Positions 4,256-39,387 of a DNA stretch of 43,544 nucleotides are shown one piece after another; the stretch's first letter is position 1; each line of letters opens with the position of its first letter. The stretch lies in contig CANRPY010000011.1 of assembly GCA_947632595.1 (NCBI GenBank), positions 1 to 43,544 on the forward strand, given 5' to 3'. The translations under genes were made by a program, and so were the position numbers. This DNA is from an uncultured Bacilli bacterium. Lineage in GTDB: Bacteria > Bacillota_I > Bacilli_A > RF39 > UBA660. The notes under the pieces are model-generated. The model did not search any database. It saw nothing but the letters and a program-made list of their open reading frames with translations, and had not been told where the DNA came from.

Positions 4256-5026
4256 CTAATTTAATACCTTCTTAAGTTCTTTCACTGCTTTTTTCTCTAA
4301 TCTAGATACTTGTGCTTGACTAATATTTAATTCTTCTGCAACTTCCATCTGTGTTTTTCCCATAACAAATCTCTCATCTAGTAAAAACTGTTCTCTCTGA
4401 TCTAATTCTTGAATGGCTTCATGAATGGCTAAAGGAGAAGAAAAATCAGGATTGACTCGTTCATCTTCGATTTGATCATATAAGTAAATGGTATCTCCTC
4501 CATCATGATAAATAGGCTCATACATACTAACGGGTTCTCTCATAGAAGAAAGAGCAAGAGAAAGGTCATATAGATCGACTCCCAATTTTTGAGCAAGTTC
4601 CAAATAGGATACTCCTTCTCCCTCTTCTAAAGCACTTTCTTGAATCATTTTATTTGCTCGATAAGAAAGATCTTTTAAAGAACGACTAATTCTCATAGAA
4701 TTATTATCTCGAATAAATCTTCTAATTTCTCCAAGAATCATTGGTACTGCATACGTAGAAAAAGCAACATCATAACTCAAATCAAAATGATCAATTGCTT
4801 TAATAAGTCCAACACACCCTACTTGAAATAAATCATCCATATTCTGTGCTTTATAATAAAATCTTTTTAATACGGACAAAACTAATTTTAAATTTCCCTC
4901 TATCAAGATATCTCTTGCACAAGGATCTTTATCCATTACAGAAAACAATTTTCTCATCTCTTCTGATGACAAAGAACCTAACTCTCCTGTATTACATCCA
5001 CTAATTTCTACTTTATAATTTCCCAT
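4256..5026 (-). CDS. sigG: RNA polymerase sporulation sigma factor SigG
   Basis: A 256-aa sigma-70 family factor for late forespore transcription. It opens with the SigG-specific N-terminus (NKVEI-like KVEISGCNTGEL), then region 2 (NLKLVLSVLKRF...DDLFQVGCVGLIKAIDHFDL, FSTYAVPMILGEIRRFIRDN), region 3 (ISRSLKDLSYRA) and region 4 (GKTQMEVAEELNISQAQVSRLE). Length and the ASP-type N-terminal region separate it from SigF, which is the main alternative. Downstream ylmC-type and yunB genes support sporulation context. SD GAGGTGA precedes the ATG. Confidence 0.92.
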   Translation of the reverse strand: MGNYKVEISGCNTGELGSLSSEEMRKLFSVMDKDPCARDILIEGNLKLVLSVLKRFYYKAQNMDDLFQVGCVGLIKAIDHFDLSYDVAFSTYAVPMILGEIRRFIRDNNSMRISRSLKDLSYRANKMIQESALEEGEGVSYLELAQKLGVDLYDLSLALSSMREPVSMYEPIYHDGGDTIYLYDQIEDERVNPDFSSPLAIHEAIQELDQREQFLLDERFVMGKTQMEVAEELNISQAQVSRLEKKAVKELKKVLN

Positions 5027-5071
5027 AATTCACCTCAAAAAAATTATGGAAAAAGAAAATCAAAATGATAC

Positions 5072-5101
5072 AAAAAAAGAAGAATTTTTTAAGATTCTTC
5101 T
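5072..5101 (-). terminator. Intrinsic terminator after trmL
   Basis: Minus-strand stem AGAAGAAT/ATTCTTCT (5094-5101 with 5078-5085) followed by a T-run. The stop codon of trmL (5089-5091) lies in the loop, so the 5' arm codes the last residues. Confidence 0.75.
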
Positions 5102-5607
5102 ACTTTCTCTAAAAAATCTGCCCCTTTATGGGGTTCTTCAAATAACAATCCTTCATAATTTTGTTGTCTCAAAGCTTCATACAAAACAATCGCAACACTA
5201 TTAGATACATTTAAAGCTCTAACTTTATCCGTCATAGGAATTCTCATACAATGTTCTAAATCTTTTTGTAAAATGGATTTAGGAATTCCTGTAGATTCTT
5301 TTCCAAAGATAAAATAAAGATTTTTACTCGTATCATGATAATCAAAACTAGTATGTGGTTTATGACCATATCTAGTAAAGTAATAATATTCTCCAGGATT
5401 TTTCTCTTGAAAATCTTGAAAATTCTCATAGACTTCATAGTCTAACTGATCGATATAATTGACACCACTTCTTTTTAAATGAGCATCATCAACTTGAAAC
5501 CCCAAAGGTTTAATTAAATGAAGTTTAGTCCCTGTCGCAACACAAGTTCTCATAATATTCCCAGTATTTTGTGGAATTTCTGGTTCAAATAAAACAATAT
5601 GATTCAT
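5089..5607 (-). CDS. trmL: tRNA (cytidine(34)-2'-O)-methyltransferase TrmL
   Basis: A 172-aa SPOUT-class methyltransferase that modifies the wobble ribose of tRNA-Leu species. Visible family signatures are NHIVLFEPEIPQNTGNIMRT at the N-terminus, LHLIKPLGF, YFIFGKESTGIPKSIL and the knot region RIPMTDKVRALNVSNSVAIV. Length agrees with the family. The ATG at 5607 has GGAGGA five nt upstream; an upstream in-frame TTG is inside that SD and is rejected. It follows the thioredoxin-like gene with a short hairpin between them. Confidence 0.93.
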   Translation of the reverse strand: MNHIVLFEPEIPQNTGNIMRTCVATGTKLHLIKPLGFQVDDAHLKRSGVNYIDQLDYEVYENFQDFQEKNPGEYYYFTRYGHKPHTSFDYHDTSKNLYFIFGKESTGIPKSILQKDLEHCMRIPMTDKVRALNVSNSVAIVLYEALRQQNYEGLLFEEPHKGADFLEKVEES

Positions 5608-6248: not shown

Positions 6249-8423
6249 TTATATAGATTTTTTCTCTTCCTGATAACGTTTGACAACCTCTAGTATCTCT
6301 TCTGGTTTCTCAAATGTAAAGTCAAAGAATGCACAACAAGAATCAAAAAGAGAATGAATATCTGTAACCTCATGATTATATATATGCAAAACTCTTCCAT
6401 CATAAAACACAGGAAAACATCTTTTTTTAGAATCCATAAGTTGATACTGTAAGTTACCCTCTTCAATTCCAAGAATATTGCTTAAGATAAGCATATTGAG
6501 AACTCTACCATAAGTAAATATTTCAAAGGAAGCATCCCCAAATTTTTCTCGGTACAAAGTAAGATATTCCAAGATTTCATGAGAATTTAATTCTACAGAT
6601 AAAGGAATATTCAAATATCCCATTTTTTGTAAATAGTATCCTGTATAAATATTCGTAACATTTAATCCATAACTTCCATAACAAGAAAAAGAAGATTGGG
6701 TATCAGATACTCTATTTCGCTCTTGTAATTGTTCTTTTAAAGAGTAAGAAGAGTGACCTACATCATAAATAATATTAGGATATTCTTTATATTTTTGATA
6801 AAGAGAAAGATCAGGAACATAAATTCTTTCAAAAGATAACCCAAGACAACATTTTAGTTGCTCTTCCTTCATGACTCTGCAACTAAAAGTTGTCGGATAA
6901 GAACCAGTACTTTTAGAAAAAGAGACTTCTTTCTCTACAAAAATAATTTTATTTTTTTCCCTTTCTTTTTCTAAATAAGAAACTGCTTCTCTTCTTAAAT
7001 CATTCAAAACAGTCATAGGAAAGAAAACAGAAGAATCCATCTGAACAGAAAAATCCTTTAGTGTAAAAGGAGTATTTCCAAGTTTTGCTAATTTTTGAGA
7101 AAGAACTTCTTCTGTAATAGGAGAAGACTTTGCTTTCTCAACAACTCCTCCTAAAACAGTATGAGTAATCTCTCCATCTGAAATAGTAAGAGAAAGCTCC
7201 TCATTTTCCTTCGCAAGAACAGAAAAAGAAATAGGTACTTTATAAAGACTTTCTTTTAAGAGAACTTCCTTTTCTAAAGAAGAATCCTGTGTCTTAGAAA
7301 GAAGATCATCTTCCCGTAATCCAACTTTATTATCAACAGAACAAACCCCCGTACTAGAAGAACAAAGTCTATCTTTCTCATCATACAAATAATTAACAAT
7401 CATACCCTTATTTTGATGAACAAAACGAATAGCATCATTCTGTCTAAGAATTTGTCCAGGGTCCAAATGGATTTCAATCTTCCCACCACGGCAAATTGCT
7501 TTTCCAATTCGTAAACCAAGATGGTTACAAGATTCTCTCGAGATAAGTTCTCCCCCACTTGCTCCAAATAAGTGACCCCTAGTAAATTCACGATTGAAAA
7601 TTGTTTTTAAAGCATCCATCCAAGAAGAATAATCAATCTCTTCTCCATCGATTAATTTTCGATAAAATTGTGTAATAAACCCTACATACAAAGCTCCTTT
7701 CATTCGACCTTCTATTTTTAAACTAGAAAGATTACTCTTTAAGAGTCTATCGATAAAAGAACTTGTATTTAATTCCTTCATACTAAGGAGATAGCATTCT
7801 TTTTGAATCTCTTTTCCCTCTTTTAAAAGAGAATAAGGTAGTCGACAACTTCCCGCACATTCTCCACGATTTCCACTTCTTCCCCCAAGCATACTACTCA
7901 TCAAACAACAACCAGAGTAAGATACACATAAAGCTCCATGAATAAAGACTTCTTTTTCAATTGGAACATCAATTGCATCAATCTCATCAATAGAAAGTTC
8001 TCTAGAAAAAACAACTCTTTTAACCCCTAATTCATAATACATCTTACAAGTCTCATAAGAAGAAATATTAGCTTGAGTAGATGCATGAATCTCTAAATTA
8101 GGAAACATCTCTCGTAAAAGACAAATCATTCCAAAGTCTTGTACAATAAGAGCATCCACTCCATTTTTATGTAAGAAACGAGCTTGTTCTAAAAAGTGAT
8201 CTACTTCTTGGTTTTTAACAAGAGTATTCATGGTTACATAAATCTTAACTCCATATAAATGACAAAAAGAAATGGCCTCTAGTATTTCATCATTTGTAAA
8301 GTTAGTTGCAAATTTTCTAGCTCCAAAATTTTTACAAGCTAAATAAACTGCATCTGCTCCATGAAAAACAGCTTGTCTTAAACAATCCATATTCCCCGCT
8401 GGTACCAATAATTCACAACTCAT
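6249..8423 (-). CDS. U32 family protein (RlhA/TrhP-like RNA hydroxylation factor)
   Basis: A 724-aa member of the U32 'peptidase' family with the long C-terminal extension seen in the RlhA-like branch. The N-terminal barrel shows ELLVPAGNMDCLRQAVFHGA, DALIVQDFGM and IHASTQANI. The Fe-S cysteine cluster is clear: CVSYSGCC (residues ~166-173) and GNRGECAGSCRLPY (~184-197). Members act in prephenate-dependent hydroxylation of RNA (tRNA U34 or 23S rRNA C2501), not proteolysis; which RNA is used here cannot be told from the sequence. The ATG at 8423 has GGGAG about 8 nt upstream. An extended -10 promoter lies directly upstream and a small-RNA gene precedes that. Confidence 0.88.
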   Translation of the reverse strand: MSCELLVPAGNMDCLRQAVFHGADAVYLACKNFGARKFATNFTNDEILEAISFCHLYGVKIYVTMNTLVKNQEVDHFLEQARFLHKNGVDALIVQDFGMICLLREMFPNLEIHASTQANISSYETCKMYYELGVKRVVFSRELSIDEIDAIDVPIEKEVFIHGALCVSYSGCCLMSSMLGGRSGNRGECAGSCRLPYSLLKEGKEIQKECYLLSMKELNTSSFIDRLLKSNLSSLKIEGRMKGALYVGFITQFYRKLIDGEEIDYSSWMDALKTIFNREFTRGHLFGASGGELISRESCNHLGLRIGKAICRGGKIEIHLDPGQILRQNDAIRFVHQNKGMIVNYLYDEKDRLCSSSTGVCSVDNKVGLREDDLLSKTQDSSLEKEVLLKESLYKVPISFSVLAKENEELSLTISDGEITHTVLGGVVEKAKSSPITEEVLSQKLAKLGNTPFTLKDFSVQMDSSVFFPMTVLNDLRREAVSYLEKEREKNKIIFVEKEVSFSKSTGSYPTTFSCRVMKEEQLKCCLGLSFERIYVPDLSLYQKYKEYPNIIYDVGHSSYSLKEQLQERNRVSDTQSSFSCYGSYGLNVTNIYTGYYLQKMGYLNIPLSVELNSHEILEYLTLYREKFGDASFEIFTYGRVLNMLILSNILGIEEGNLQYQLMDSKKRCFPVFYDGRVLHIYNHEVTDIHSLFDSCCAFFDFTFEKPEEILEVVKRYQEEKKSI

Positions 8424-8447: not shown

Positions 8448-8456
8448 ATTATATCA
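8448..8456 (-). promoter_or_regulatory. Extended -10 promoter of the U32 gene
   Basis: Minus-strand TGATATAAT (8448-8456) with no convincing -35. It would give a leader of under 20 nt, starting downstream of the small-RNA terminator, so the U32 gene can be expressed independently of the upstream RNA. Confidence 0.5.
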
Positions 8457-8465
8457 CAAAACAAA

Positions 8466-8493
8466 GAAAAAAACTCCATCATACGATGAAGTT
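8466..8493 (-). terminator. Intrinsic terminator of tandem-hairpin RNA
   Basis: Minus-strand stem AACTTCATC/GATGGAGTT (8485-8493 with 8472-8480; one U-G pair), loop GTAT, then seven T. No protein gene ends just before it; the only transcript it can close is the one starting near 8620 (or readthrough from rubrerythrin). Confidence 0.85.
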
Positions 8494-8503
8494 ATCCTAC
8501 ATT

Positions 8504-8601
8504 TTCAACCGGGATCATTTATTAGTCGCACCACCTGGAAGCGAAAAACATTGTCGCCTGGAATCATTTATAATCCGCACCATCCAGAAGCGAAAAACAT
8601 T
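8504..8601 (-). repeat. Two tandem 49-nt direct repeats in the RNA gene
   Basis: Unit 1 is 8553-8601 and unit 2 is 8504-8552 on the minus strand, exact period 49. Shared blocks include AATGTTTTTCGCTTC, TGGTGCG and ATAAATGAT. A weaker partial match (AAAATGTAGGATAACTTC) continues into the terminator arm. Confidence 0.85.
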
Positions 8602-8626
8602 TTCACACTTTTTCAAGTGCAATATA

Positions 8627-8655
8627 AATATACTATATTTTTATGAAAATGTCAA
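8627..8655 (-). promoter_or_regulatory. sigma-A promoter of tandem-hairpin RNA
   Basis: Minus-strand TTGACA (8650-8655), 17-nt spacer, TATATT (8627-8632). This is as good as the tRNA-Val promoter, which has the same hexamers and spacing. Confidence 0.82.
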
Positions 8656-8710
8656 ATATAGCATACACTATATATTATATTCAAATTTCAAATAAAAATT
8701 ATGATGTATG

Positions 8711-8739: not shown

Positions 8740-9279
8740 TTAATAGTTTTCTGCTCTTAATTCAAAATAACTTTGTGGATGAGCACATACTGGACAAACT
8801 GCTGGAGCATTCTTTCCAACAACGATATGTCCACAGTTTCTACATACCCAAATAGCATCTCCATCTCTTGAGAATACTACTTTATCTTCAATATTCTTTA
8901 ATAATTTACGATATCTTTCTTCATGATGTTTTTCAATTTCTCCTACTGCTCTAAATTTAGCAGCAATAGCAGTAAATCCTTCTTCTTCTGCCACTTTTGC
9001 AAATCCATCATACATATCAGTCCATTCATAATTTTCACCTTCAGCAGCTGCAGCTAAATTATCAACAGTAGAAGGAACATCTCCACCATTTAACTCTTTA
9101 AACCACATTTTAGCATGTTCTTTTTCATTATTTGCAGTCTCTTCAAAGATAGCTGCAATTTGTTCATACCCTTCTTTTTTAGCTTTAGATGCGAAATAAG
9201 TATATTTATTTCTTGCTTGTGACTCTCCTGCAAAAGCAGTCATTAAATTTTGTTCAGTTTTACTTCCTTTTAACTCCAT
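8740..9279 (-). CDS. rbr: Rubrerythrin
   Basis: A 179-aa rubrerythrin: an N-terminal ferritin-like four-helix domain with the diiron ligands ([49 protein letters not shown]) and a C-terminal rubredoxin-like iron site CRNCG...[12 protein letters not shown]. It reduces hydrogen peroxide in the cytoplasm of anaerobes. It is a single-gene unit: own promoter (9315-9343) and own terminator (8711-8733). SD AAAGAGGT precedes the ATG. Confidence 0.96.
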
Positions 9280-39109: not shown

Positions 39110-39381
39110 ACAAAAAACACTAGTCTTTATCTCCTACTATTAATATAGTAAGGGACGAAGACTAGTGTTTCCGCGGTACCACCCTTATTACCATAGAATC
39201 TCTATGATCACTCTCGGTTCCAACAAACCAAAGCACAAATAACGGTATGCACACCGGCTTAGTCTACTAATTTCTTTAAGCACTCTGAAGTGTTCTTTCA
39301 AAATATCTCTTTATTAGGTTCCACCATACCCTAACTCTCTAGAAAAGAGGATTATTTTTACTTCTCTTCTTCATCGATTTC
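39110..39381 (-). promoter_or_regulatory. T-box riboswitch, Asn specifier (AAC), controlling gatCAB-aspS
   Basis: Minus-strand leader of ~270 nt with the T-box core AGGGTGGTACCGCGG (39171-39185), a Stem I with loop-E AGTA (39359-39362), distal GGTATGGTGGAACC, and after it the specifier loop. The specifier is AAC (39292-39294), followed by A and CTTC, which pairs with GAAG beside loop E. The base before is G, so the loop reads GAAC. The 3' part forms a terminator: AAGACTAGTGTT (39158-39169) pairs with AACACTAGTCTT (39116-39127), then a T-run; uncharged tRNA-Asn should prevent it. Confidence 0.93.
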
Positions 39382-39387
39382 TAACTC

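Follow-up and report, generated by a model that had tools for sequence, protein, structure and literature searches.

A solitary CptI-type antitoxin RNA, very probably left behind by its toxin gene, in an uncultured Bacilli bacterium

The type III toxin-antitoxin system CptIN of Eubacterium rectale has been described at the structural level (PDB 4RMO; PMC4627078), and the sequence of the crystallized CptI repeat can be read from the printed primer (PMC4627078). We compared it with a small RNA locus found in a stretch of 43,544 nucleotides (contig CANRPY010000011.1 of assembly GCA_947632595.1; hereafter, the window) from an uncultured Bacilli bacterium. Both have tandem units, an H-type pseudoknot with an A-rich L2 (AUAUAAAUG), and a terminator after the repeats. 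The elements also follow the same order, namely S1, a short L1, S2, S1', L2 (AUAUAAAUG) and S2'. The E. rectale toxin is homologous to the toxin of the sister loci of the window. However, its units are 45 nt long instead of 49 nt, the S1 and S2 sequences are different, and it includes a toxin gene, whereas the window locus has none. Complete cptIN loci from the same bacterial family (L093 of genome G579, L064 of G410, and L031 of G033) share the promoter, the two units, the terminator, and the −10 element of the toxin leader with the window, at 76–91% DNA identity. They carry cptN at the point where the window has a U32 gene.

More distant systems resemble the locus in part. ToxIN/ToxI (P. atrosepticum, B. 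thuringiensis, and AbiQ) has a similar layout and the same pseudoknot principle, but the ToxI_Pa repeats are 36 nt long, the toxin belongs to another family, and the window RNA has no Rfam match. The pseudo-ToxI of phage PhiTE (PMC3475682) likewise comprises type III antitoxin repeats unaccompanied by a toxin gene; however, it is phage-borne and acts against ToxN-mediated abortive infection, whereas the window RNA is chromosomal and of the CptI type. The ccd system of Erwinia chrysanthemi (PMC2654758) offers a parallel in its proposed effect, in which a resident antitoxin blunts the toxin of a mobile element. Its antitoxin is a type II protein and the effect was shown by experiment, while for the window RNA the same effect is only suggested.

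The locus occupies positions 8700–8448 of the minus strand and consists of a promoter, a pair of 49-nt units, and an intrinsic terminator with a 9-bp stem. The features are as follows, all on the minus strand.

8740–9279: rubrerythrin, native upstream neighbor outside the system
8627–8655: sigma-70 type promoter of the RNA, TTGACA-17-TATATT, consensus score 11/12
8554–8602: CptI unit 1, 49 nt
8594–8590 with 8578–8574: S1 of unit 1
8587–8583 with 8562–8558: S2 of unit 1
8573–8564: A-rich loop L2 of unit 1, UUAUAAAUGA
8505–8553: CptI unit 2, 49 nt
8544–8541 with 8529–8526: S1 of unit 2, four pairs
8538–8534 with 8513–8509: S2 of unit 2, one broken pair (A.C at 8536/8511)
8462–8493: intrinsic terminator, 9-bp stem (8493–8472), GTAT loop, then a T run
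8448–8473: presumed deletion junction, a T-rich stretch with an extended −10 (TTTTGTGATATAAT)
6249–8423: U32 family protein with DUF3656 (likely RNA hydroxylation), native neighbor outside the system, likely start at 8423

A preliminary description of this DNA had already reported the promoter, the two 49-nt units, the terminator, and the stem mismatch in unit 2. These observations hold, and the best register of the units is 8602–8554 and 8553–8505. Promoters and terminators were compared by simple consensus scores; shuffled sequences contain 0.1 terminators on average. The 29-nt promoter block is identical in the complete loci of G410 and G579, and the complete loci carry the same terminator as the window.

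The small RNA is a CptI-type antitoxin of the type III CptIN class. A search of related genomes revealed one full homologue, in G033, a genome of the same genus, which is 76% identical from promoter to terminator. It precedes a 157-aa toxin gene, not U32, and the encoded protein scores 155 bits against the CptIN toxin entry of NCBIfam (cut-off 90) and matches CptN of PDB 4RMO at 1.7e-16. The other low-scoring DNA matches of this search were terminator-like or T-rich and were discarded as noise. A class-wide profile search gave further cptIN loci, and two units of the same kind lie upstream of nearly all confirmed toxins examined. The closest complete locus, L093, shares 91% identity with the window across 254 nt, with 3 differences in the core of 106 nt. 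A covariance model trained on 15 toxin-linked antitoxins, with the window left out, finds 8604–8499 (minus strand) at 115.2 bits (E 2.8e-24), the sole match in the 43.5 kb. Because the model derives from other loci, this is an observation far beyond chance. The locus thus shows tandem repeats in the CptI size range (about 45–49 nt), H-type pseudoknots with S1, S2, and an A-rich L2 (one S2 pair being broken in unit 2), homology to cptN-adjacent antitoxins, and a promoter before and a Rho-independent terminator after the repeats. What separates it from a complete CptIN is the position directly 3' of the terminator, where U32 stands in place of cptN.

The preliminary description had listed type III antitoxins among possible resemblances, but dismissed the family for want of its consensus motifs and called the RNA undescribed. 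The resemblance was apt, while the dismissal was mistaken. Both its pseudoknot and its L2 sequence agree with CptI, and homologues lie directly upstream of CptN genes. The RNA is therefore of a known kind, and the label of an undescribed small RNA or aptamer falls. The Rfam search that had been proposed gave, at the gathering and relaxed thresholds, only chance matches at the RNA site, with no ToxI and no glycine or guanidine-II riboswitch; this shows only that Rfam holds no model able to find the RNA. Elsewhere in the window (39148–39383, minus strand), Rfam strongly matches a T-box leader (134.8 bits), and a tRNA-Val (TAC) lies at the contig edge (1–76, minus strand).

Each unit is an H-type pseudoknot. 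In unit 1, UUCGC pairs with GCGGA to form S1, and CUGGA pairs with UCCAG to form S2. Among 23 aligned units, 93.9% of the cells are paired, both-sided changes occur at eight of the ten pairs, and the covariation score is 0.566, compared with 0.240 in shuffles; when the partners were slid as a control, pairing fell to 28–50%. The inner stem of the preliminary description (CTGGA/TCCAG) corresponds to S2, in which all five pairs covary and 99% of the cells are paired. The outer stem proposed there (CGC/GCG) does not survive, with one of the three pairs failing in 19 of the 23 units and none covarying. Since CGC pairs with GCG inside the supposed loop, the conserved "loop" is in fact the S1' plus L2 strand; in CptI, the L2 strand makes an A-minor twist (PMC4627078). 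Plain folding of the window RNA gave no signal (z −1.1), which is uninformative because the structure is a pseudoknot. At the position of the A.C mismatch in unit 2, toxin-linked related loci have A-U. Outermost A.A pairs of S2 in some other loci were also considered as signs of decay and rejected, as they occur in a complete locus as well and mark a subclass with a 4-bp S2.

In the window genome (G000), CptN was not found by protein or by profile, although the same profile run detects the toxin of G033. TenpN (NF047358) and ToxN (PF13958) gave no match either, the latter in a search that lacked a positive control. The assembly has 51 contigs and is 95% complete, so a toxin gene may lie in the missing sequence. 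The rubrerythrin-U32 gene order is conserved in the genus. In G026, an empty site, the two genes are about 79 bp apart, and the gap holds the U32 leader TTTTTATGATATAATAGG. The preliminary description had noted that U32 has its own −10; this element is also present in the empty site. In the window, CptI homology extends to 8448 and U32 homology begins at about 8473, with an overlap in TTTTGTGATATAAT. The toxin leader of L093 has TTTTATGATATAAT at the overlap position, and the junction stretch resembles both this cptN leader and the native U32 leader of G026. A short sequence common to both leaders suggests a deletion by short-repeat recombination, and loss of cptN between near-identical leader sequences would explain the layout. 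Insertion of the antitoxin alone may have produced the same arrangement, and the data do not separate the two. The gap acts like a small hotspot for insertions. In most members of the genus it encodes a conserved protein of 119–124 aa on the opposite strand, which is probably a membrane protein (L034, L035, L038, L044–L047, and L059–L061); it is absent from the window and from G026.

We are highly confident that the RNA is an orphan CptI antitoxin left after the loss of cptN, possibly with residual activity. According to this proposal, a cptIN module consisting of antitoxin repeats, a terminator, and the gene of the CptN ribonuclease was present, or landed, between rubrerythrin and U32. Then cptN would have been lost, probably through recombination between TTTTATGATATAAT-like sequences before cptN and before U32, joining the promoter, the two pseudoknot units, and the terminator to the U32 leader. 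The orphaning was most likely recent. An RNA of about 155 nt is probably still transcribed, to judge from its promoter and terminator sequences; the preliminary description was right to propose a free RNA that binds protein and has a promoter and terminator of its own. As unit 1 is intact and the core departs from a toxin-linked antitoxin at only 3 nt, the RNA may still bind and inhibit the CptN of closely related modules. Its action would be passive: the cell would be spared on the entry or loss of a conjugative element that carries a matching cptIN, an effect known as anti-addiction. However, CptI antitoxins are toxin-specific (PMC4627078), and activity could by now have been spoiled by the broken S2 pair or by the two further changes. 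Given this tight specificity, protection would extend only to close relatives such as the toxins of L093 and L064, which share 88% identity.

We surveyed 386 genomes of the same family, one per species, working with metagenome assemblies. The covariance model matched in 105 of them and the toxin profile in 83. Among 121 full-length antitoxins, an intact toxin follows within 900 nt in 68 cases and a broken or partial one in 14, while 39 have none, although five of the 39 have less than 700 nt of downstream sequence. About six of the 39 retain toxin remnants, ranging from an N-terminal stub to an in-gene deletion, and some orphans directly follow a complete cptIN. In this survey, every intact toxin for which sufficient upstream sequence was available had an antitoxin. 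The apparent exceptions listed lay at contig ends or had a divergent antitoxin, and the last remaining case was a toxin fragment. Antitoxin-only loci are thus common and toxin-only loci unseen, as would be expected of a toxin that kills when its antidote is absent. Orphans in three genera precede the same hydrolase gene, which at first suggested vertical retention, but their upstream neighbors differ and do not bear this out. A limited open-access literature search found no published report of an orphan CptI.

Several loci of the survey have unusual arrangements. L131 (G736:C14) contains two orphan two-unit arrays (1346–1452 and 1589–1695) 137 bp apart, both with a promoter and a terminator and without a downstream toxin. 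In L151 (G597:C20), a complete cptIN is immediately followed by an array of four CptI units of two types between a single promoter and a single terminator, and no toxin comes after the array. The orphan CptI of L121 (G486:C57) is followed about 400 nt later by an apparent ToxN/AbiQ-type toxin, recognized by eye, a possible stack of two type III systems. In L223 (G535:C15), a complete CptN is preceded by an apparent single CptI unit instead of two. At L063 and L082 (G389), cptN reads W where the frame has TGA, as a TGA=Trp code would give, and the copy next door looks degenerate.

Whether the antitoxin still serves the cell is a separate question. It is fairly probable that it is a neutral relic, whose toxin was lost recently and which is decaying without function. 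The A.C break of unit 2 is absent from every complete locus, and one of the three core differences from L093 breaks a pair, compared with 0.78 expected from random changes. Promoters are weaker among orphans (mean score 9.8 of 12, compared with 10.5 in complete loci; p 0.003), and toxin fragments persist at several neighbors. However, the window copy retains an intact promoter, terminator, and unit 1.

A stronger claim of present function than our preferred explanation makes is that the RNA is maintained by selection to neutralize CptN from conjugative elements or other cptIN carriers, which we regard as possible but rather unlikely. Every core pair is kept in 34 of the 39 orphans. A complete cptIN (L154; IMGVR_UViG_3300011008_002676, 4580–5239) lies among conjugation-type genes (a VirB4-like ATPase and a membrane pore protein) on a contig that is listed as viral but is probably a conjugative element, and a recombinase gene lies near the cptIN of G033. 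The transcript-like four-unit array of L151 and the two orphan arrays of L131 point in the same direction, and precedents exist in the chromosomal anti-addiction antitoxin of ccd (PMC2654758) and the phage antitoxin mimics of ToxI (PMC3475682). Against this, all six broken core pairs fall in orphans and none in 33 complete loci (6 of 624 and 0 of 528 pairs; by locus, Fisher p 0.058), orphan promoters are weaker as given above, the window copy itself has a broken pair, and the RNA occurs in only 2 of 39 genus genomes. We therefore lean toward a relic with residual activity. The L154 contig had been the single IMG/VR match and was rejected as a case of a phage antitoxin; CptN had no match in phage records and only distant matches in four plasmids.

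That the RNA serves a toxin from a different family whose gene lies elsewhere in G000 is very improbable. Type III antitoxins do act in trans from a second plasmid (PMC4627078), but no ToxN, TenpN, or CptN was matched in this genome, with the reservation on PF13958 noted above. Finally, a cis-acting leader or riboswitch of U32, considered possible in the preliminary description and suggested by the position directly upstream of that gene, is rejected, since the position is not conserved (U32 is matched in 35 of 39 genus genomes, the RNA precedes it in one, and orphans elsewhere precede MurC, RuvB, HtpG, GreA, NUDIX, and hydrolase genes, named by eye from sequence), and a strong terminator separates the RNA from U32, whose −10 also occurs in the empty site.

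Catalogues of type III systems are organized by toxin, and antitoxin-only loci are consequently invisible in annotation. In this gut-bacterial family, roughly one in three full-length CptI antitoxins has no downstream toxin, whereas intact toxins are not seen on their own, and such one-sided loss is the trace expected of an active poison-antidote pair. The pseudoknot model supplied here covers an RNA for which Rfam appears to lack one. It is conceivable, though doubtful, that solitary CptI RNAs are a common, selected form of chromosomal RNA immunity in the family, in which the incoming toxin is shed, the antitoxin kept, and units of different specificity sometimes stacked in one transcript, with the result that addiction or killing by later elements would be blocked. 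The orphans are ready natural loci for testing RNA anti-addiction.
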